A DNA stretch of 24,043 bases from a virus, in IMG/VR virus record IMGVR_UViG_3300045973_000546, positions 1-24,043 of that record; one strand, 5' to 3'. Below, in pieces: positions 9,355-20,619 of the stretch. Below the pieces are notes generated by a model. That model was not told where the DNA came from, did no database searches, and saw only the letters and a list, made by a program, of their open reading frames with translations. Positions within the stretch are counted from its first letter, which is position 1, and the number at the start of each line of letters is the position of its first letter. The position numbers were made by a program, and so were the translations under genes.

Positions 9355-9402
9355 GCGTAGCAAGCATGGCAGCATCATCCTATCTACTTGATGGGCGGTG
9401 CC

Positions 9403-12400
9403 ATGGAAAAGTTACTGAGCGACGAAGAAGTATTCGGAAAGCAATCAAATAGCGTAAGACTGCTTTCAGATGATGAGGTTTTCGGTACAGCGAGCAAGCG
9501 CCGGCCAATCGATCAGATCATCAAGGACGAGAGCGATCCAGTAAGAGCCGCCAATGCGGCTAGCGACGCCGGGTACGATTACGCCGAGATAGACAAGGCA
9601 ATCACCGAACGCGAAGAGCGGGCAAAGGCGATGTCAGAGAAGCGCACGGTCGGAAATGTGGCGACGGATCTTGTTGCTCAGCCGATTATCGGTGCTCAGA
9701 AAATGGCAGCGGGTGGAATTCGCTTCGTTGGAGACGTCATTGCCCCTGAGCCAGACAAGCCAATCGACAATTTCCGCGAACAGGGTGGCGTAGCAAATGT
9801 TCGTCAAATCGTCGGGCGCGGGTTAAGCCAGTTCGGCGGGGAGATATACCAAGAGGGCGGAGACATTGAAAAGCAGGTCAATGTTGAAATGCCGAACGCA
9901 ACCCTTCAGGGGTTGTACGGCGGCGCCAAGTCCCTCGCGTTGCAGGCACCAATGCTTGGCGCTCCCGGTGTTGCTGCGCCGCTTGCCTTCATGGGCGGGC
10001 AAGTCGGACTCGATAAATACGCCGAAGCACGTGAAGCGAAATACACCCCAGGTATGTCGGCCGCAATTGGCGCTGGGCATGGCGGTATCGAAGTCGCTAC
10101 CGAATTGCTCCCGACAAAGTTCTTCAAGGAATCCATTGGAAAGGCTGGACTGAAGGAATTCGTTGTTGGCCTATTGGCGCGAGAAGTGCCGGGTGAGCAG
10201 GCGGCCACGCTGGGCCAGGATGCAATCGATCAGGCTGTCGGCCTATCGGGCAAGACAAAGGGCGATTGGGAACAATACTGGCAAGACCGGCCTGCCGCGG
10301 CTTATCAAACCCTTCTCGCCACACTGTCGCAATCCGGACTGCAAACGGCTGGCCATGCCGCATACAAGAAGCTATCAACGATCGGCGAGCCGAAGACCAA
10401 TCAGGATCTGATTGCGCAAGAGCTCTCGGAAAATGTTGCCAGCACCAATTTCTCAGCCGAAGGAATCGCCCAGTCGGCAGTAAATCAACTGAGCCCTGAC
10501 CGTGCGCAGATGCATGCGGCACCGGCCGCGAGTGCTGTTGATCCGACTGCCATGGCGACCACCGGGGATTCTGTAAATCCAGCTGCAAACGCATCTACGC
10601 CGATACCCGAGAATCCACAATCTTCCAGCGACCCGCTTCAGCGACTCGCAGAAATCGAGATTGAATCTTCGCGTCGCGAGCTCACGCCGGCCGAGGTTTC
10701 AGAAGCCAATTCACTTATTGAACAACTTCAAGGAGAAGAGAATGCCGTTACCGAGCTACATGACAATTCCTCAGAAACTCGGGGCGCGACCGAGCCCTCT
10801 GCTGATGTCGCTACTGGCGGGCAAGGGGTGCAAGGGGAAGAAGCCGCCGCCAAAACGGTAAAGCCAGGGGGCGAATGGGCAGAGTTTCCACCCGAGTCCG
10901 GAACACTCGGAATTCCTCGTTCCGAGATGCCGCAGATCAAGGCAGAGCACCGCGGCGCCCTGATCAATTTCATGAACGCTCGAGGCATCACCAGCCAGCA
11001 GGAAGAGGTTCCAGCTGACTCACTAAAGCCAACGCAGGCAGAGTATTCGCCGAAGAAAGTCGAGAAAGCCAAGGGGTTCGAAGGTGGTGATCGGTCGATT
11101 CTTGTTTCGTCGGATAACCATGTTCTCGACGGGCATCACCAGTTGCTCGCGAAGCAAGAAGAAGGGAAGCCGGTAAAAATCATTCGCCTGAATGCACCGA
11201 TCAGCGACCTTGTTCCGCTGGCGCATGAATTCCCAAGCGCCACGACCGCGCCCGGAGCGCCTGGCACACCGCTAAATCAGGGGTTTGTTCCGCTCAATGT
11301 GCCGAGCCTGTCGCCGGCCGCACAGGCGCGGGTATCGGGAATCGATAGCAGGCTTGGTGAAATCCAGGCAGACATGCCGAATCGCACGGCGCCAGTGCGG
11401 GCATCTTTGCAGCGCGAAGCTGCTCAGCTGCTGAGTGAAAAAGAAGTGATTCACGCTCAAGCGGCAGAGGCGGCGCAAGCCAAGCCAAAACAGCCCGCCG
11501 CGCGCCAACCTTCGCCAATCGAGCGCCGCGATGATCTGGTCGGCGCAATCATGCGAGTGACTGGCGGCAATGGTATTGCGGCAAGCCATGCTCAAACCAT
11601 CGTTGGCGATAAGGCGAACGCAGCAACCAAGGTTCGCGGGCTCTTTACCAACAAGGGTACAGCAGACCTTGGCGACACGGCCATGCTGTTGCGTGAACAG
11701 GAAGGCTACGACGTCAAAGACGGCGAGCATCTTTCGGAACTGATCCGCGAACAGGCGGCCGGAAATCCCGTGTACTCGATGGAGCGCATCGAGCGCGATG
11801 CCGCAGCGAATGCAGAAAAGCAGCACAAAGATTCGATCAACCGCCGCGCCGAAGAACTTGGCTTGAAGAAGAGCGGTGGCAAGCGTACTCTTGATGCTGT
11901 CATTGCTGATATTGCCCGCGAAGAAAAGCGCCTATCCGATCTTGAGTCAGATGCCGAGCGCGAGGCAATTCAGGCTGCCGACATCGCAGATAGTATTTAT
12001 CAAGAAGAATCTGATCTAACTGAAGCCGATTTGATGCAATGGCTTGGTGATCGTGTCGAATATTCACAGGACGAAATCAATGAAGCCAATACCCGATCAT
12101 CTAAAATCAAAAGTAGAAGATCTGAAGCTCGATCTATTGAAATATCCGATGAGCAAGCGCAAGGAGATCATCGAGAAGGGGATGGCGATCGCTCGTCAGC
12201 GACAATTGGTAGCCAATCTAAAGAAGGAGCGCGAGGAAATCTCGAAGACCAGTCCGCCACAGGGCAGCGGAGCAAAGATGATCAAGGCAATCAAGGAAGC
12301 AACAAAGGCGATCAGCAAGACCGTGTAACCGAGGACGGTCCAAAGCCGCAGTATCAGGCGGGCGATCGCATTGTTCCGGGAAAAGATGTATTCGATGGCG

Positions 12401-15400
12401 ACATCGTAAAGACCAAGAATGGCAAGCTGTGGATGGCGCGCGTCAAGCGCGGGGACACAATCCCAGTTGTTCCGTTTGAAAACGGGAAGCCAGTTGTATC
12501 GGCAGATACACGCAAGACCTTCAGCCTGCTATCGCAGGAAGTCACGCACACCGGTGAAAACTATTACGGGCATGGCGGCCAGCCGAAGCCAGGGCTAACA
12601 CTTACCGGCCAAACAGCCGCAGAAATCCGGCAACAGGAACAGGATCGAGTCGCTGCTGCCGCAGAGGCTGCGCGTCAGGAAACGCAAGACGCTGCCGACA
12701 AGAAGGCGGCTGAAAAGAAATCACTCGAAGATGCCATCAAGGCCCGAGCTGCGAACCCTGACAACTTCCAGTTTGGCGAAGATGCGAAAGCTGCAGCGAA
12801 GCCGATGGGTAATCTGTTTGATCAGCCTAGCGCCAATGCGCAAGTAGCTAAATCAAACGCCAAAGAACCCCCACCAAAATACGGAATTTACCAACTACCT
12901 GATGGATCGTTCGCAAAGTTCGATAGGGTTTGGTATCGCGGAGAAAAAACAGAGCGCGCTGCAATGCTCTCTGAAATGGTTATCCCAGGAAACGCTGCGC
13001 CAAAAGATAGGCTAGATAGCCAATCATGGGTATTTACCAAGGGGTTTTCCCGCAATGAATACGATGGTAGTCCATTGCGTCTTACCAAGAATGGCGAGGA
13101 TGCTGCGGTCGACGCCAGCAATGAGCGAGAAACAGCGGATCGACCAAGCGCCGAACCTGTAACGGAGCCGGAGAAATCCGAGTCCAGTACCCCATCAGAA
13201 ATGGACTCGCTCAAAGCAGAGATGGGCGATGCCATTGGAGAACTAGCTTCTATCCTTGGTGTGAAGATGAATCTCACACCGGAAGAGGAAAGCAAGATCA
13301 TTCCGGTGATGTCGAAGATTTTCCGCATCGCCGCAAAGATGGGTTACATCAAGTTTGCTGATGCAGCGAAGTATGTCATGCAGCAGATTCGCACTATGGC
13401 CGGGACAATCGTTGCCGACAAGATCAGCATCGAGAATCTTCAGGCCGGTTACATAAATGTTTCCAAGGAGATCGGCGGCGACAAACGCGAAGCCATGTCC
13501 TATGATTCAATTGAAGACTTGGAGAAATCAGAAAATGTCACTGACGAGCGTAGCAGCACCGATCTGGAACGAGATAGCCAAGACGCAGAAGCTGCGGACG
13601 CCGTGGGCGAAGATGGCGTTCGCGCTGGACGGGATGGCGATGGCGGAACTGGAAGACAAGGAGTGGAAGGAGCTGAAGCTGAAAGTGGACAGCGAGGTAG
13701 CGAGCGCAGTAGTGAAGATGAAGCCGCTACTGCTGGAGAACATAGCGATCAGCAAATATACACAGGCGCACCCGAACTATCGCCAGGCTCTGCCGGAAGT
13801 CGTGTCGATATCGGAAGCAGTAATGATAGCCTCGATGGATTACCCATTGAATCAGACGCAGCAGCAGCAGTTGAAAAAACTGCTACAAGCAGAGTTCAAA
13901 AAGAACGGGATCAACTAGCCCAGCAAAAGTCCGACAACAAGCCGCAAGGCGAAGGACTAGCCGCTGTTCGTGCTGCGCTTCCTATCCTCACCGAAGGGCA
14001 GCAAGACGACGTATTCAAGACTGAAACGCGCTTCGCTGTTCCTGACGGTTACGGCATGCTTTTCACCAACGGCACAGGAACTGGTAAAACATTCTCTGGT
14101 CTTGGCGTCATTAAGCGCATGGGCAATCAGGGAAAGAACAATATCCTGATCGTCGCGCCTAGCGATGAAATCATCAATGCTTGGCAGAAGGCCGGCAAGT
14201 TGCTTGGCCTTGAGCTTACCCGCCTTGCTGATACCAACGACGCCGGAACGGGTATCACCATCACGACCTACGCCAACATGGGCGCCAACAATGCGCTGGC
14301 AACACGCGACTGGGATATGGTCGTCCATGACGAAGCGCACTACCTGGCGATGGATAAGGACGGCACCAGCACCAATGCACTGAAGAACCTGCGGGCGATC
14401 ACGTTGCATCCGGATGGCGTGTTTCAGCGTCACAACATGATCAATGCGGCCGACATCCAGCGTCTGGCCGAGCTGGACGCGAGCGCCAAATCAGACCGTA
14501 TGTCTGACTTTGATGTTCAATGGCAGCGTGCCGAGGTTACGCAGAAAGAAGCCGACAAGCTGCGCAACGAACTGAAGGTCAAGCAAGACGCCATCAAGCA
14601 AGACGTAGCAGATCGCCAGGGCGCCAACCGCACCCGCGCGTTGTTCCTATCTGCAACACCGTTCGCCTACGAGAAAACAATCGACTGGGCCAATGGCTAC
14701 ATCTTCGACTACAACGAGGGCCAGGCCAGCGAAGATCGCGAGTTCAGGGGTTACAACTCCGGCAGCAACAAAGACCGTTTCTTCATGCAGCACTTCGGCT
14801 ACCGCATGCGGACGGGCAAGCTGACGCAGCCAGATGCTAAGGTCGATAGCGGTTTGATGCAGCGCCAGTTCAACGCCTGGCTGAAGAAGAAAGGATCGTT
14901 GTCTGGCCGCATGCTCGATGTCGCAGCCGACTATGACCGCAAGTTCATCCTGGTTGATTCGGCTATTGGACAGCGTATTGACGAGGCGCTGCAGTGGTTT
15001 GAGGTGAAACGCAAGGCGCAGCACTCCGGCACAGGTGAGATGGGCGAAAGAGCCGGCGCCATCATGGCGAAGGCTGACCCATACGTTGATGCGCTGAACG
15101 CTGTGCGCGACCAGATCGCAGAGAAGTTCGATTACCTGTCGCGCCGCTACCTGCTCGAATCGATCAAGGCCCGCGAAGTGGTTCCGCATATCCGCGAACA
15201 CATGGCGATAGGGCGCAAGATTGTTGTGTTCCACGACTACAAGAAGGGCGGCGGATTCAACCCGTTCATTCTTGACGAGCGTTCAGTGAAATCTCAAGAG
15301 GCGATAGACGCCACAGTGTCGGCCGAGCAGTGGAATCGTGTTGTCCGCGAGTTCAATGCTGAGTTCAAAGACATCATCAATTCAGACCTGTTCAGACAGT

Positions 15401-18400
15401 CGTCTCCGATTGATATGTTCAAGCAGGAATTCCCAGGCGTGCTGCTGTTCAATGGCGACGTGCCGGCCAAGACGCGCTGCGACAATGTTGCCAAGTTCCA
15501 GGACGACGCCAGCGGTCCGCAGATCATCCTTGTTCAATCTGCTGCAGGCAAGGAAGGCATCAGCCTGCATGACACCACAGGAAAGCACCAGCGCGTTCTA
15601 TTCAACCTTGGACAGCCAACTCAGCCGACTACCGCTATCCAGCAGGAAGGCCGTATCTACCGAACCGGCCAGGTGACTGACGCAATGTTCCGCTACTTGA
15701 ACACGGGCACCAACTGGGAGAAATGGGCTTTCGCAACAACCATCGCCCAGCGTGCCAGCACAGCAGAAAACCTAGGCATGGGCGAAATGGCTCGCGCCTT
15801 GAAAGATGCGTTCGTCTCAGGATTTGAAGAATCTGGCGACTATCGCGCCGGGATGGCAGGCGAGGGCAAGGGTGGCAAGGAACGCGACAAGGCCGCGAAC
15901 GACGCGCTGACCGAATACGACCGCGCTCGCGCTTTCTACTTCGGCACGCAGAAAAAGAACAGCAAGACCAAGGCGCAGGAAGGTGCTGACTACTTTGCAA
16001 CGCCTGAACCTGTCGGATTGAAGATGGTTGAATGGGCTGACGTTCGCCCAGGTGAGCGCGTGCTTGAGCCGTCAGCCGGCCATGGCGCTATTGCTCGCTG
16101 GTTCCCTGACACAGCAGACAAGACGGCAATCGAGCCAAGCATGGCGCTACGCTCGCGCCTGGCGATGGTGTTCAACGGAACGATGATCGACACCGACTTC
16201 GAGTCGATGAATGTCGTCAATAAGTTCGACGCCATCGTGATGAATCCACCGTTCGGCTCTGGCGGGAAGATGGCCGTTGAACACTTGGCAAAGGCCGCTA
16301 CGCACTTGCGTGATGGTGGCCGCATTGTGGCCCTGATTCCTACGGGACCGGCTGCTGACAAGAAGTTCGACAAGTGGATGTATGGCGAGGAAGAGCGAGC
16401 CATCAAGCCACTTTTCGACCATCCTGTTCTTGGTCCTATCTACCGCGGCGATACCGTTAATACGCGCGCAAGCTGGATGAAGGAAGGCGTCATTGTTCGC
16501 CGTGACAAAGACGGTCATTTGTGGATGAAGCGCGAAGGCGTGCCGGGTGAATCAATGGTTGCCACGGAGTCATTCACCAGCGTCAAGCCGACAGGCAAGC
16601 GCACCGAGATGGTCAAGACGGCACCCAGCCTGAACATGGTTGCCGACATCAAGATGCCGTCAGTCACGTTCGAGCGAGCCGGCACGCAGGTAATGACGCG
16701 CATTGTTGTGATCGAGAAACAGACTGCTGCGGACAAGGTGATTGATACCCGTGGCGTCTATAACAAAGACTTCACCGGTGAAGACGACATCAATGCGCTG
16801 TTCAACCGCATGGAAAACATGGCGTTGCCTGGCCGCTTGAAAGAGCGCACTGAGGAAGAAGTGCCGGCGACGAAAACGCAGAAGGTGGAAAATCCAGCAC
16901 CGTCAGCAGTTGGCGATGTGGTCACAATCGAAGGGGCAGAGTACCCGATTGAAATCTACGTCACGAACGACGGAAAGGAAAAGCGCGGCATCTGGATGGC
17001 AGAGAGGCTGGCCAAGGCGCTTAATCCGCGTGCGTTTAAGACAGCGAAGAACAACGGTACGCCGAATCAAGGCAAGTTCTTTGTCGATGAATACTGGCTG
17101 AAGAAGAACGGCCCGGCAGTGCTATCAGCTGCGCCGTTTTCGCGCGGGGAAGACTTCACACCAATCAGCCTTGACGTTGCTGCCGGCGTTGTCCAGCGCG
17201 TCCGCGCCATCGCGGAGAAAGAGTGGAAAGTCGATATTCGCCTCGTCCCGACCTTTGATTCGCTTCCGGACGATACGAAACAGGCAATAGCCAAGTATGG
17301 TGAGGACACCAAGGCCAAGGGCGTACTGCACAAAGGGGTTATTTATCTGGTTGCTGATGAACATGAGTCAGAAGCCGATTTGGAAACCACTATTCTGCAT
17401 GAAGCCAAGGGGCATGTGGGGATTCGTCGATTGTATGGAGCAGAGGCAGAGAAAAAACTGAATGCCTTGTTCGATGCTATCGGCGGCGCGCCGGGCCTGG
17501 CCAACATTGCCAAGCGCCGCGGATTCACTGAAGAAATGCAGGGCTATGCGCTGTCGCTCAAGGATTCGGATTTCTCGAATGGTGAGCGGACACGGATCAT
17601 CATGGAGGAATTGCTTTCCCACATCGCCCAAGAGCCAAAATTCACGGACAAGGTGAAGGCCGTTGTTGGTGCGGTTCGCGCATGGCTTCGAGATAACGGT
17701 TTCATGAGCCTGTCAAGCTACGGAGAAACCGACCTTCTTAAAATCCTCAGTGATGCCAGCAAATCGCTAAGCGTTATCCGATCCGAAGACGGCCTAGCCG
17801 TCCTGATGGCGTCGTCCCGCATTTCGGCAACCGCCAACAATGCTTATCAGCAAGGGAAGCAGAAGGTTGCGGATCTAACGAGTCCGGAATCAATCAACAC
17901 CCTGGTCTATAACTTCCAGAACAAGTACGTCGACCTGAAGAACATGCAGGACCGAATCAAGGCGATAGGCGGCACGCTGACCGATCTGAATGATGCCTAT
18001 CTCGGTGAAGAGATGTATCACGGCAAGGTGATGAAGAAGACCGCGGATTTCCTCGACGAAGAGATTCATCCGTTGCTTCGCCAGCTGTTCAACAATGGAA
18101 TCAAGAAGGAAGATTTCGAGCAGTATTTGCATGCCAGGCATGCGCCGGAGCGTAATGCGGCTATGGCTTTGCGCAATCCGAATCAGGCGATGATTGATGC
18201 CGGCCAGACAAAGGCGGATGCGGATCTGAAATCGTTACATCTGCAGTTGCAAAATGCTCAGGCGCATGGCTTGGCTACCAAGGCGATTGATAATTCTATC
18301 GAGAAAGCTAAGGCAGAGCGTGCGCAATGGCATGGCGCTCAGGCATTCAAAGGCACCGAGGACGAGCGCAACTCGCTTTCCGGTATGAGCGATGCGGCGG

Positions 18401-20619
18401 CAGCGCAGATCATGTCTGCCGTGAGGCCCGGCCACCGTCATGCAATGGATTCTGCCGCAGCTAAGGTAGATGCCATCAATGCCAAGTCGCTTGATCTCCA
18501 ATTGAATTCAGGCTTGATTGACCGGGCAACCTACAACGCGATCAAGAGCGCCTATAAATTCTATGTGCCATTGCATCGTGACGAGGCGCACCCAGATAGT
18601 GCCAGCCATCCGATAGGGCAGGGCTTCAGCGTTAAGGGCAGCGGCATCAAACGGGCGACCGGTTCAAACGAGACGGTGACAAACATTCTCGGCCACGTTG
18701 CCATGAATCGCGAGGCGCAGATCACGCGCTCTGAAAAGAATAGCGTCTCGAAGCGGCTCTATTTGCTGGCTTCGCAGAATCCGGACAAAGACTTTTGGAG
18801 CGTTGGCCGGCCGCCGACGATCAAGACCATTGACCCGCGCACTGGCTTTGTCCGTTCGCAGGTTGATCCAAACTATGCCAGCAAACCGAATGTGCTGGTC
18901 GTTCGCATTGCCGGCAAGGATGCGGCCATTGTATTCAATGAACACAACCAAGAGGCCGTGCGCCTGGCTGGTGCATTGAAAAACCTTGATGGGCAGGATC
19001 TTGATGTTGTCGAGCGCACGATAGGTAAGGCAACACGGTGGTTTGCTGCGGTCAACACGCAGTACAACCCTATTTTTGGCATCGTCAATTTGATGCGCGA
19101 CTCCCAAGAGGGAATCATCAACCTGACAACGACGGAAATCGGAAACAAGAAATGGGATGTTGCGAAAACCATTCCGTCTGCGATGCGCGCGATTTACCAA
19201 ATCGAGCGGGGTGGTATCGCTAGCAATCAGCGGATGGGTGATCTGTGGAAGGAGTTCCAAAGCGTAGGCGGGGAAACTGGCTATCGTGATCTATACGCCT
19301 CACCAGAGGATCGCGTGAAGGCGCTGGAGAAGGAGCTGAAATCGTTTGAGCGAGGAAGTATCAGCAAGCGGGCGCATGCCGTTGCTGAATGGCTTTCCGA
19401 CTACAACACGACGATGGAGAACGCGGTTCGTCTTTCGGCCTACAAGGTGTCCATTGAAAACGGATTGAGCAAAGAGCGCGCAGCCAGCCTGGCAAAGAAC
19501 CTCACAGTGAATTTCAATCGCAAGGGAGCAAAAGCGGCAAAGCTCGGCGCGCTCTACGCATTCTTCAATGCGTCCGCCCAGGGCACGGCCCGGGTAGCAC
19601 AAACTATGCGCGGCCCAGCCGGAACGAAAATACTGATTGGCGGCGTCGCGATTGGCATTCTTCAGCAGGCGCTCGGCATGATGATTATGGGCGGAAGCGG
19701 AGATGACGACAGCGAATGGGACAAGATTCCTGACTTCATCAAGGAAAATAATCTCATCTTCCCGATTGGCCACGATAAGTTCGTTTCTATTCCTCTTCCG
19801 CTTGGCCTCAAAGTATTACCGAACATTGGCCGCCTGTTTGCAGAGTGGGCAACCGGTGGTGAAGATCGGCCTACCGGGAAGCAGATTGGCAAATTACTGA
19901 GTATTGCCATCGGATCATTTAATCCGCTGGGCGGCAGTGACGTGGTGGACATGGTTTCTCCGACTGTCGCTGACCCGGTAATTTCCTTGCTTCGAAATAA
20001 GGACTGGACGGGCAAGCCGATATACCGCGAGGACATGGCAAGCCTTGATCCAACACCGGGATTCACGCGTACTAAGGATTCGGCAACGCCATGGGCAAAG
20101 GGATCGAGCTACATGATCAACCTGGCAAGCGGGGGGAACGATTATCGTCCTGGACTATGGAGCCCAACTCCGGATCAAATTGACTACGTTATTGGCCAAT
20201 TAACCGGTGGCGTCGGTCGCGAGCTTGGGAAGGCAGTGCAAACCGTATCGTTTCCTTTCACCGGCGATGAACTGCCAGCGCACAAAATTCCGCTTGCTGG
20301 CCGTCTATATGGGACCACTAATGGACCAAGCGGCCAGTCCGAGAAGTTCTACGAGAACATCAAGGAGCTGAACGGTATCCAGCGCGAATTGAAGGGGCGA
20401 ATCAAGGACGACAAGGATGTTACTGAATTTCTTGAAAAAGAGAAGCGCGCCGATCTGATTGGCCTGGGAAATTCAGCAGAGTCCCAAGTGCGGCATCTTC
20501 GCCAGCAGCGCCGGATACTTTCCAAGGAAGGCGACACCGCAGGAGCAAAGGAGATTGACGCATCAATCGCTGCAGTAATGAAGGGGCTCAATATGGAAAT
20601 GCGTCCAGCGAATCGATAG
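9403..20619 (+). CDS. Giant polyvalent ejected protein: ParB-like, helicase, methyltransferase, zincin
   Basis: About 3738 residues counted from ATG 9403. ATG 9391 and TTG 9388 are also in frame, and none has a clear Shine-Dalgarno sequence. In order: twin LLSDEEVFG/LLSDDEVFG motifs (4-28); Gly/Ala-rich region (about 65-330); ParB-like domain with VLDGHHQ (574-580); helical polyvalent domain (706-790); another near 1267-1365; SF2 helicase with GTGTGKT (1557-1563), DEAH (1643-1646), SAT (1750-1752) and QQEGRIYRTGQ (2080-2090); methyltransferase with LEPSAGHG (2221-2228) and NPPF (2281-2284), typical of N6-adenine enzymes; zincin-like HEAKGH (2666-2671); C-terminal polyvalent domain with a hydrophobic segment (3407-3428) and a PLxRFG-like PLAGRLYG (3630-3637). 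This resembles P1 DarB and other polyvalent proteins thought to be ejected to shield entering DNA from restriction. Three linkers carry nested ORFs in another frame. Confidence 0.9.
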   Translation: MEKLLSDEEVFGKQSNSVRLLSDDEVFGTASKRRPIDQIIKDESDPVRAANAASDAGYDYAEIDKAITEREERAKAMSEKRTVGNVATDLVAQPIIGAQKMAAGGIRFVGDVIAPEPDKPIDNFREQGGVANVRQIVGRGLSQFGGEIYQEGGDIEKQVNVEMPNATLQGLYGGAKSLALQAPMLGAPGVAAPLAFMGGQVGLDKYAEAREAKYTPGMSAAIGAGHGGIEVATELLPTKFFKESIGKAGLKEFVVGLLAREVPGEQAATLGQDAIDQAVGLSGKTKGDWEQYWQDRPAAAYQTLLATLSQSGLQTAGHAAYKKLSTIGEPKTNQDLIAQELSENVASTNFSAEGIAQSAVNQLSPDRAQMHAAPAASAVDPTAMATTGDSVNPAANASTPIPENPQSSSDPLQRLAEIEIESSRRELTPAEVSEANSLIEQLQGEENAVTELHDNSSETRGATEPSADVATGGQGVQGEEAAAKTVKPGGEWAEFPPESGTLGIPRSEMPQIKAEHRGALINFMNARGITSQQEEVPADSLKPTQAEYSPKKVEKAKGFEGGDRSILVSSDNHVLDGHHQLLAKQEEGKPVKIIRLNAPISDLVPLAHEFPSATTAPGAPGTPLNQGFVPLNVPSLSPAAQARVSGIDSRLGEIQADMPNRTAPVRASLQREAAQLLSEKEVIHAQAAEAAQAKPKQPAARQPSPIERRDDLVGAIMRVTGGNGIAASHAQTIVGDKANAATKVRGLFTNKGTADLGDTAMLLREQEGYDVKDGEHLSELIREQAAGNPVYSMERIERDAAANAEKQHKDSINRRAEELGLKKSGGKRTLDAVIADIAREEKRLSDLESDAEREAIQAADIADSIYQEESDLTEADLMQWLGDRVEYSQDEINEANTRSSKIKSRRSEARSIEISDEQAQGDHREGDGDRSSATIGSQSKEGARGNLEDQSATGQRSKDDQGNQGSNKGDQQDRVTEDGPKPQYQAGDRIVPGKDVFDGDIVKTKNGKLWMARVKRGDTIPVVPFENGKPVVSADTRKTFSLLSQEVTHTGENYYGHGGQPKPGLTLTGQTAAEIRQQEQDRVAAAAEAARQETQDAADKKAAEKKSLEDAIKARAANPDNFQFGEDAKAAAKPMGNLFDQPSANAQVAKSNAKEPPPKYGIYQLPDGSFAKFDRVWYRGEKTERAAMLSEMVIPGNAAPKDRLDSQSWVFTKGFSRNEYDGSPLRLTKNGEDAAVDASNERETADRPSAEPVTEPEKSESSTPSEMDSLKAEMGDAIGELASILGVKMNLTPEEESKIIPVMSKIFRIAAKMGYIKFADAAKYVMQQIRTMAGTIVADKISIENLQAGYINVSKEIGGDKREAMSYDSIEDLEKSENVTDERSSTDLERDSQDAEAADAVGEDGVRAGRDGDGGTGRQGVEGAEAESGQRGSERSSEDEAATAGEHSDQQIYTGAPELSPGSAGSRVDIGSSNDSLDGLPIESDAAAAVEKTATSRVQKERDQLAQQKSDNKPQGEGLAAVRAALPILTEGQQDDVFKTETRFAVPDGYGMLFTNGTGTGKTFSGLGVIKRMGNQGKNNILIVAPSDEIINAWQKAGKLLGLELTRLADTNDAGTGITITTYANMGANNALATRDWDMVVHDEAHYLAMDKDGTSTNALKNLRAITLHPDGVFQRHNMINAADIQRLAELDASAKSDRMSDFDVQWQRAEVTQKEADKLRNELKVKQDAIKQDVADRQGANRTRALFLSATPFAYEKTIDWANGYIFDYNEGQASEDREFRGYNSGSNKDRFFMQHFGYRMRTGKLTQPDAKVDSGLMQRQFNAWLKKKGSLSGRMLDVAADYDRKFILVDSAIGQRIDEALQWFEVKRKAQHSGTGEMGERAGAIMAKADPYVDALNAVRDQIAEKFDYLSRRYLLESIKAREVVPHIREHMAIGRKIVVFHDYKKGGGFNPFILDERSVKSQEAIDATVSAEQWNRVVREFNAEFKDIINSDLFRQSSPIDMFKQEFPGVLLFNGDVPAKTRCDNVAKFQDDASGPQIILVQSAAGKEGISLHDTTGKHQRVLFNLGQPTQPTTAIQQEGRIYRTGQVTDAMFRYLNTGTNWEKWAFATTIAQRASTAENLGMGEMARALKDAFVSGFEESGDYRAGMAGEGKGGKERDKAANDALTEYDRARAFYFGTQKKNSKTKAQEGADYFATPEPVGLKMVEWADVRPGERVLEPSAGHGAIARWFPDTADKTAIEPSMALRSRLAMVFNGTMIDTDFESMNVVNKFDAIVMNPPFGSGGKMAVEHLAKAATHLRDGGRIVALIPTGPAADKKFDKWMYGEEERAIKPLFDHPVLGPIYRGDTVNTRASWMKEGVIVRRDKDGHLWMKREGVPGESMVATESFTSVKPTGKRTEMVKTAPSLNMVADIKMPSVTFERAGTQVMTRIVVIEKQTAADKVIDTRGVYNKDFTGEDDINALFNRMENMALPGRLKERTEEEVPATKTQKVENPAPSAVGDVVTIEGAEYPIEIYVTNDGKEKRGIWMAERLAKALNPRAFKTAKNNGTPNQGKFFVDEYWLKKNGPAVLSAAPFSRGEDFTPISLDVAAGVVQRVRAIAEKEWKVDIRLVPTFDSLPDDTKQAIAKYGEDTKAKGVLHKGVIYLVADEHESEADLETTILHEAKGHVGIRRLYGAEAEKKLNALFDAIGGAPGLANIAKRRGFTEEMQGYALSLKDSDFSNGERTRIIMEELLSHIAQEPKFTDKVKAVVGAVRAWLRDNGFMSLSSYGETDLLKILSDASKSLSVIRSEDGLAVLMASSRISATANNAYQQGKQKVADLTSPESINTLVYNFQNKYVDLKNMQDRIKAIGGTLTDLNDAYLGEEMYHGKVMKKTADFLDEEIHPLLRQLFNNGIKKEDFEQYLHARHAPERNAAMALRNPNQAMIDAGQTKADADLKSLHLQLQNAQAHGLATKAIDNSIEKAKAERAQWHGAQAFKGTEDERNSLSGMSDAAAAQIMSAVRPGHRHAMDSAAAKVDAINAKSLDLQLNSGLIDRATYNAIKSAYKFYVPLHRDEAHPDSASHPIGQGFSVKGSGIKRATGSNETVTNILGHVAMNREAQITRSEKNSVSKRLYLLASQNPDKDFWSVGRPPTIKTIDPRTGFVRSQVDPNYASKPNVLVVRIAGKDAAIVFNEHNQEAVRLAGALKNLDGQDLDVVERTIGKATRWFAAVNTQYNPIFGIVNLMRDSQEGIINLTTTEIGNKKWDVAKTIPSAMRAIYQIERGGIASNQRMGDLWKEFQSVGGETGYRDLYASPEDRVKALEKELKSFERGSISKRAHAVAEWLSDYNTTMENAVRLSAYKVSIENGLSKERAASLAKNLTVNFNRKGAKAAKLGALYAFFNASAQGTARVAQTMRGPAGTKILIGGVAIGILQQALGMMIMGGSGDDDSEWDKIPDFIKENNLIFPIGHDKFVSIPLPLGLKVLPNIGRLFAEWATGGEDRPTGKQIGKLLSIAIGSFNPLGGSDVVDMVSPTVADPVISLLRNKDWTGKPIYREDMASLDPTPGFTRTKDSATPWAKGSSYMINLASGGNDYRPGLWSPTPDQIDYVIGQLTGGVGRELGKAVQTVSFPFTGDELPAHKIPLAGRLYGTTNGPSGQSEKFYENIKELNGIQRELKGRIKDDKDVTEFLEKEKRADLIGLGNSAESQVRHLRQQRRILSKEGDTAGAKEIDASIAAVMKGLNMEMRPANR
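10742..10861 (+). CDS. Nested small ORF 1 inside the giant gene (+1 frame)
   Basis: A 39-residue candidate starting MPLPSYMTIPQKLGARPS and ending in a basic KGKKPPPKR tail. It has an ideal AAGGAG at 10730-10735 with a six-base spacer to ATG 10742. In the giant frame the same DNA encodes a low-complexity linker (about residues 447-486) just before the ParB-like domain. By hand count, about 29 of 39 third positions are G/C in the nested frame against about 21 of 40 in the giant frame. It is short, so chance is a real alternative. No family is recognised. Confidence 0.4.
   Translation: MPLPSYMTIPQKLGARPSPLLMSLLAGKGCKGKKPPPKR
12080..12328 (+). CDS. Nested small ORF 2 inside the giant gene (+1 frame)
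   Basis: An 82-residue candidate starting MKPIPDHLKSKVEDLKLDLL, strongly helical and charged, with a Lys-rich C-terminus (MIKAIKEATKAISKTV). AGGA at 12068-12071 lies eight bases before ATG 12080; an upstream GTG at 12044 is also in frame. The giant frame across this DNA (about residues 893-975) is an Asp/Gly/Gln/Ser-rich linker with no fold-like pattern. Hand count of G/C at third positions gives about 51 of 82 in the nested frame but about 28 of 83 in the giant frame, against about 51 of 80 in a sample of the helicase domain. That contrast favours the nested frame as the better-adapted coding frame. The function is unknown, and the alternative is a formerly independent gene now read only as a linker. 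Confidence 0.5.
   Translation: MKPIPDHLKSKVEDLKLDLLKYPMSKRKEIIEKGMAIARQRQLVANLKKEREEISKTSPPQGSGAKMIKAIKEATKAISKTV
13535..13918 (+). CDS. Nested small ORF 3 inside the giant gene (+1 frame)
   Basis: A 127-residue candidate starting MSLTSVAAPIWNEIAKTQKL. It reads like a folded helical protein: ELEDKEWKELKLKVDSEVAS, then MKPLLLENIAISKY, then ALPEVVSISEAVMIASMDYP, with a Gln/Lys-rich end. GGAG at 13521-13524 lies ten bases before ATG 13535. The giant frame here (about residues 1378-1505) is a Gly/Asp/Glu/Ser-rich low-complexity linker directly before the helicase. By hand count, about 94 of 127 third positions are G/C in the nested frame against about 43 of 128 in the giant frame. No family was recognised. 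It may be a true overlapping gene, or a captured gene whose frame is no longer translated separately. Confidence 0.55.
   Translation: MSLTSVAAPIWNEIAKTQKLRTPWAKMAFALDGMAMAELEDKEWKELKLKVDSEVASAVVKMKPLLLENIAISKYTQAHPNYRQALPEVVSISEAVMIASMDYPLNQTQQQQLKKLLQAEFKKNGIN

Follow-up and report, generated by a model that had tools for sequence, protein, structure and literature searches.

Small phage genes that lie wholly within another gene, on the same strand and in another frame, are represented by the Rz/Rz1-type nested spanin genes, which are annotated in Parlo, BcepIL02, BcepMigl, DC1 and CSP3. Polyvalent DarB-like LPD38 giants are the second described system to which the locus discussed here can be compared (Iyer et al. 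2017, PMC5512222). No description of genes nested inside polyvalent giants was found in the accessible portion of that paper, and none of nested or overlapping genes in polyvalent or DarB-like phage proteins was found in the literature (most subscription papers and the original Bcep22 description were not covered). One such giant, the DarB-like gp69 of JC1, one of the Bcep22-like Lessieviruses, was detected by mass spectrometry in purified virions (PMC9144972, available in part). The available part of the same source also covers DdrA, Hdf and Ulx, the antirestriction accessory proteins of P1, which come from separate genes. In the P1 record (L164), the annotated iddB (26577-26975) lies within ddrB but runs on the other strand, and is another nested gene in an antirestriction locus.

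The window analyzed here is one IMG/VR virus record of 24,043 bases. It contains a giant ORF of about 11,000 bases (9388-20619, plus strand) that encodes 3743 residues with an SF2/SNF2-type helicase, a DNA methylase and LPD38 in one polypeptide. These are the features of an LPD38/DarB-like polyvalent protein, and the giant is polyvalent in the sense of Iyer et al., as far as the accessible text of that paper defines it. The Pfam matches are LPD38 (1.4e-44), Helicase_C_4 (5.1e-9) and MTS (5.2e-5), and phrog_10691 is matched with an E of 0. The listed start is a TTG; codons 2 and 6 are ATGs (9388-9403), and either of these may be the true start. The genes upstream have matches in the families of tail fibre, internal virion protein, virion structural protein and PAPS reductase, an integrase gene lies downstream, and the gene order resembles that of the Bcep22-like Lessieviruses.

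Two ORFs, nest1 and nest2, are held within the giant ORF. The first, nest1 (12080-12328, plus strand), encodes an 82-residue product, P0001, and runs from an ATG to a TAA in the +1 frame of the giant. It sits wholly within the giant ORF, in a different frame and on the same strand, and is thus a nested ORF like Rz1. It differs from the Rz/Rz1 arrangement in that the enclosing gene encodes a giant polyvalent protein and not a lysis protein, and in that there are several nested genes per enclosing gene. An Rz1-like lysis role for P0001 was considered and rejected, as no hydrophobic N-terminus, signal peptide, lipobox or membrane segment was seen by eye and the GRAVY is -0.67. We think it probable that nest1 is a protein-coding gene in a place where the giant needs only a flexible linker, with the reservation that translation is unproven.

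The start site and composition of nest1 bear out what a sequence-only reading had pointed to, and every number in it is correct. An AGGA, which resembles a Shine-Dalgarno element, does lie at 12068-12071, 8 nt before the ATG and within the giant codons of YSQDEIN. Among the eight ATG, GTG and TTG starts checked in the open frame of nest1, only 12080 has such an element at 5-10 nt, and AGGA is found 7-9 nt before just 3 of the 121 ATGs in the +1 frame of the giant. The element consists of AGGA only, which is a weak point. The GC content by codon position is 50/34/62% in nest1 and 62/51/35% in the overlapping giant frame, so the inversion at the third position that had been counted by hand is correct. 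The giant segment over nest1 (12082-12325, plus strand; residues about 898-980; GC3 35%) is the expected interdomain linker rich in Asp, Gly, Gln, Ser and also Arg (S13 G10 R9 D9 Q9 E7 of 81 residues). Domain-like sequence was said to return immediately after the nested stop. It does return, within about 20-90 residues: the stop falls at giant residue 981, and alignment of the giant to the relative L005 resumes at about residue 1002, and to other relatives at about 1049-1069. P0001 is basic (pI 10.0) and Lys/Glu-rich from the N-terminus onward. Its Asp+Glu content is 12.2%. Shadow +1 ORFs (n = 1501) average 1.9% (sd 2.2%), and 0.07% of them are as high; among the 20 listed +1 ORFs in the giant of the window, values above 5% are confined to the two nested candidates.

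Codon likelihoods were calculated with the usage of the window's other genes and the remainder of the giant, and the +1 and giant frames were compared in 82-codon windows. The +1 frame scores above the giant frame at just two sites of the giant ORF, nest2 (+0.229 at 13648) and nest1 (+0.203 at 12079). The next separate +1 maximum is -0.128, and windows with the +1 frame ahead make up 3.4% in all. When the giant was resampled synonymously, 0 of 20,000 sequences reached the nest1 score. In a calibrated version with global resampling, nest1 has a z of 5.26 and is at the top of 92 windows along with nest2 (background mean 1.53, sd 1.34). Under local codon permutation its z is 3.13, which is unexceptional (the background has a mean of 1.49 and an sd of 0.98, and values of up to 3.85 occur in other windows). 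The signal is therefore in the giant's choice of synonymous codons and not in codon order. A local-permutation P of 0/20000 for nest1 was not accepted as decisive, since the calibrated run shows that the background is biased.

It could be that a linker of low GC3 and low complexity happens to be open and Lys/Glu-rich in +1, and that no protein is made. The modest result under local permutation is in line with this, and a +1 frame of this length is often open, with a P of no stop of 0.65 by synonymous resampling of the giant and 0.17 by local permutation. However, the codon likelihood and Asp+Glu content of nest1 speak against a frame that is open by chance, as does the Shine-Dalgarno-like element at the one nest1 start. 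Nest1 is remarkable in its codon usage, its Asp/Glu content and the constraint on both frames, not in being open. When the nested protein was resampled synonymously, the giant frame acquired 4.9 stops on average and stayed open with P = 0.0026, so both frames look constrained and not the nested protein alone. This dual-frame constraint rests on single-sequence tests for nest1, and the comparative tests cover the ORFs of relatives only. Computation shows that both frames, in the codons they use, in their composition and in how they avoid stops, fit simultaneous coding. The nested frame dominates locally, with normal codon usage and an ordinary protein composition, and the giant frame there is of low complexity.

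The open giant frame also bears on whether two compensating indels near 12080 and 12325 could make the true giant frame look like a nested one. In favour of such an error, the window is a single virus record, and one relative (L079) has a giant ORF with a single frame break. However, the nested frame has an ATG and Shine-Dalgarno-like element of its own and ends in a TAA at 12326, no stop interrupts the giant frame, which would have the probability given above if it were unconstrained, and nested signals are also present in phages that were isolated and sequenced independently (Parlo, ZX1, JC1 and BcepIL02). An assembly artefact is scarcely credible.

The homology search that had been proposed for the 82-residue product came back empty. 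P0001 has no homolog by tblastn across 50,697 phage records, none in 151 fetched loci (best E 0.20) and none in 5 whole genomes, and 399 genomes gave only two chance-level matches. A phmmer search of 2228 nested ORFs gave a best other E of 2.7. Against Pfam and PHROGs the only match is phrog_4878 (E 0.063), and there is no match to PDB sequences. Close relatives sought through the giant region around nest1 were not found, nor did a further search for loci related to P0001 find any. In a Smith-Waterman class test, 6 of 150 shuffles reach the summed score and the reversed sequence scores nearly the same, which means there is no signal. The lack of a sequence homolog is a further point in favour of a chance frame. 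The single-sequence AlphaFold model of P0001 has helices at 6-19, 24-57 and 63-81 (pLDDT 87.5, pTM 0.62) and matches no PDB fold at E<=0.001. The pLDDT is weak evidence because no shadow ORF was folded as a control.

Relatives of the giant were also collected. Helicase-based searches gave 33 + 47 viral loci and 61 loci from bacterial genomes, and with 4 loci from a nest2 search and 6 phage records the total was 151. Together with the window these were reduced to 126 by removing identical 400-base helicase stretches; near relatives remain. For the codon scan, 96 of the 126 are long enough. With a peak threshold of 0.1 and nest2 masked, the region upstream of the helicase has 78 +1 peaks in 442 kb (56 of 96 loci), 67 of them fully open, versus 5 +2 peaks in 4 of the 96 loci. 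The longer part downstream of the helicase has 10 +1 peaks over 588 kb. A tally in which all 332 of 332 coding-like ORFs were in +1 was discarded as evidence of frame bias, as the GC criterion itself disfavours +2. Shine-Dalgarno-like sites precede 20.9% of the slot-ORF starts and 7.2% of the starts in shadow ORFs.

In five of 18 relatives (L005, L110, L124, L016 and L003) the alignment of the giant flanks the nested ORF left and right, and there the nested interval overlaps giant residues 898-980. In the remaining tested relatives the giant alignment covers at most one side. Several small families of nested ORFs recur, among them families A and B, C and others. Family A, as grouped in this analysis, comprises nested ORFs of L002, L004, L005, L011, L110, L117, L124 and L126 and has a core of LPxxxRxxLxxL; the L004 and L005 members match with an E of 6e-12, and the profile also finds L117 (3e-4) and L124 (6e-4). 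Family A shares with nest1 its frame and its part of the giant. In the window and in L002, L004, L005 and L011, AGGA lies exactly 8 nt before an ATG and follows giant-frame QDEI, EEEL, EQEI or EEEI; L117 has the AGGA 8 nt before a GTG, and L110 is without this context. The protein bodies, in contrast, have no detectable sequence similarity. P0001 is not matched by the HMMs of families A and B, and it scores 1.0 bit against that of family A, a score that 910 of 3000 shuffles equal, so it is not filed as a family A member. We read the shared slot and start context as one start site at which the protein has been replaced or has diverged fast. Both, together with the class-wide excess of +1 over +2 signals, also count against a chance open frame, which we consider unlikely overall.

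The near absence of +2 peaks is what a programmed shift into +1 would explain as well. Such frameshifting would give a truncated isoform of the giant ending at 12328, without internal initiation, and the fact that the nested frame ends in a stop is consistent with it. However, the +1 frame is open for merely 15 codons upstream of the nest1 ATG (from 12035), the codon signal begins at that ATG, and five loci share a Shine-Dalgarno spacing of 8 nt. On this evidence, which does not include a search for slippery sites, frameshifting is very improbable. A genuine, fast-evolving nested gene, its translation unproven, remains the best reading of nest1. The earlier proposal, that the nested gene is real and that its codon signature surpasses that of the giant frame, is supported by the codon likelihood, the Asp/Glu content, the constraint on the giant frame, and the slot ORFs and start context of relatives; there are no translation data, and none of the relatives found keeps P0001.

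Comparative evidence comes from the ORFs of relatives. Among 17 pairs of homologous nested ORFs, none of which includes nest1 and two of which include the window's nest2, the nested frame has the higher amino acid identity in 15 and the giant frame in 1, and the two are equal in 1. In the same pairs nested position 3 differs most in 14, with ties in 2. Other nested ORFs were seen in the course of this work. Four in the +1 frame of the giant (L009 7665-8315, L031 8373-8822, L135 4591-5130 and L144 4090-4569) resemble what we take to be HNH/AP2-type homing endonucleases. A further family was grouped by eye (L035 6743-6988, L036 7067-7369, L011 7404-7646, L108 5383-5580, L121 5122-5502 and L161 ~11563-11757); its members often have a Pro/Leu-rich end with a final His and, in loci of the helicase set, are located ~1.9-2.6 kb upstream of the helicase.

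The second nested gene, nest2 (13535-13918, plus strand), encodes 127 residues in the +1 frame directly before the helicase part, with a GGAG resembling a Shine-Dalgarno element 10 nt before its ATG (13521-13524, plus strand). It has the same GC3 inversion, as the sequence-only reading had stated. Its profile matches 116 of the 126 related loci, and the homologs keep the +1 frame. According to record titles the hosts span several bacterial phyla, and both phages and prophages carry the gene, which is unannotated. Among the ten loci without a match, L088, L089 and L097 have a look-alike ORF in its place, L148 starts inside the helicase, and in L064, L066, L074, L075, L085 and L087 the helicase ORF lacks the giant's upstream half. 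Nest2 is matched by no Pfam or PHROG model. An alignment of 64 sequences (the window and 63 others, with the loci from phage records left out) gave a predicted helical fold with a pLDDT of 92.1 and a pTM of 0.83, for which a fold search found no known match. Over 115 loci 874.5 giant-frame stops are expected and zero are observed. This is partly by construction, since the ORFs were drawn from open giant frames; all loci but four were found without nest2. In L020 (9630-9788) and like loci (L023, L024, L026-L029, L032 and L033), a nested ORF of 52-54 residues ends exactly at the nest2 start codon, so that two nested genes lie back to back within the giant.

The DarB-like genes of five Lessieviruses (Bcep22-like) have an unannotated +1 nested ORF (L156 6435-6842, L157 7245-7619, L158 7577-7951, L159 6423-6797 and L160 8471-8857). 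These larger nested ORFs are the strongest +1 codon signal of their giant. Over them, 8 of 10 pairs have more differences at position 1 of the giant than at position 3, with 2 ties, whereas in the rest of these giants position 3 differs most in 10 of 10. A short Lessievirus nested ORF was not accepted as supported by substitutions, since giant position 1 exceeds position 3 in only 3 of 6 pairs. As controls, no +1 window exceeds the main frame in the N4 virion RNA polymerase, in P1 darB or in the Vibrio phage 1.205 giant; in the giant of phiARM81mr one does. None of the 13 phage records examined has a gene annotated inside the giant. Nest1 is one instance of a class: in relatives the same linker holds different small nested genes, and the conserved nest2 adjoins the helicase.

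How nest1 is expressed and what it does are inferred, because the initiation, timing and role rest on its location and on the presence of the giant in JC1 virions. The giant gene would be transcribed together with the late genes. Ribosomes may initiate internally at ATG 12080 from the AGGA, on the same late mRNA as the giant, and the giant and a small basic helical protein would then be produced together. P0001 may assist the giant virion protein as an accessory, in its folding, its packaging into heads or its contact with DNA; this is inference only and is held tentatively, as more doubtful than not. If small proteins work with a giant that is packaged in the virion, the P1 accessory proteins would parallel them in function. 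Those are separate genes, however, P1 darB has no +1 nested signal, and a sequence link to nest1 was checked only by family searches.

A wider proposal, for and against which we see the case as evenly balanced, is that in podophages and prophages the genes for giant polyvalent virion proteins are gene nests. The interdomain linkers would house several small +1 genes, with nest2 nearly universal and others like nest1 quickly exchanged. The products would be made with the giant and would be its partners or a rapidly renewed pool of early effectors, and they would have been missed by annotation because gene callers usually refuse fully nested genes. There is a direct prediction for proteomic study of the virions of Burkholderia phage JC1, where the giant gene has its own nested ORF. 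How often small genes hide within long ones, and whether the linkers of giant proteins are a birthplace of new genes, become testable questions. That phages have nested genes is not new, but a set that recurs, favours one frame and sits within the largest phage protein would amount to a hidden class of genes.
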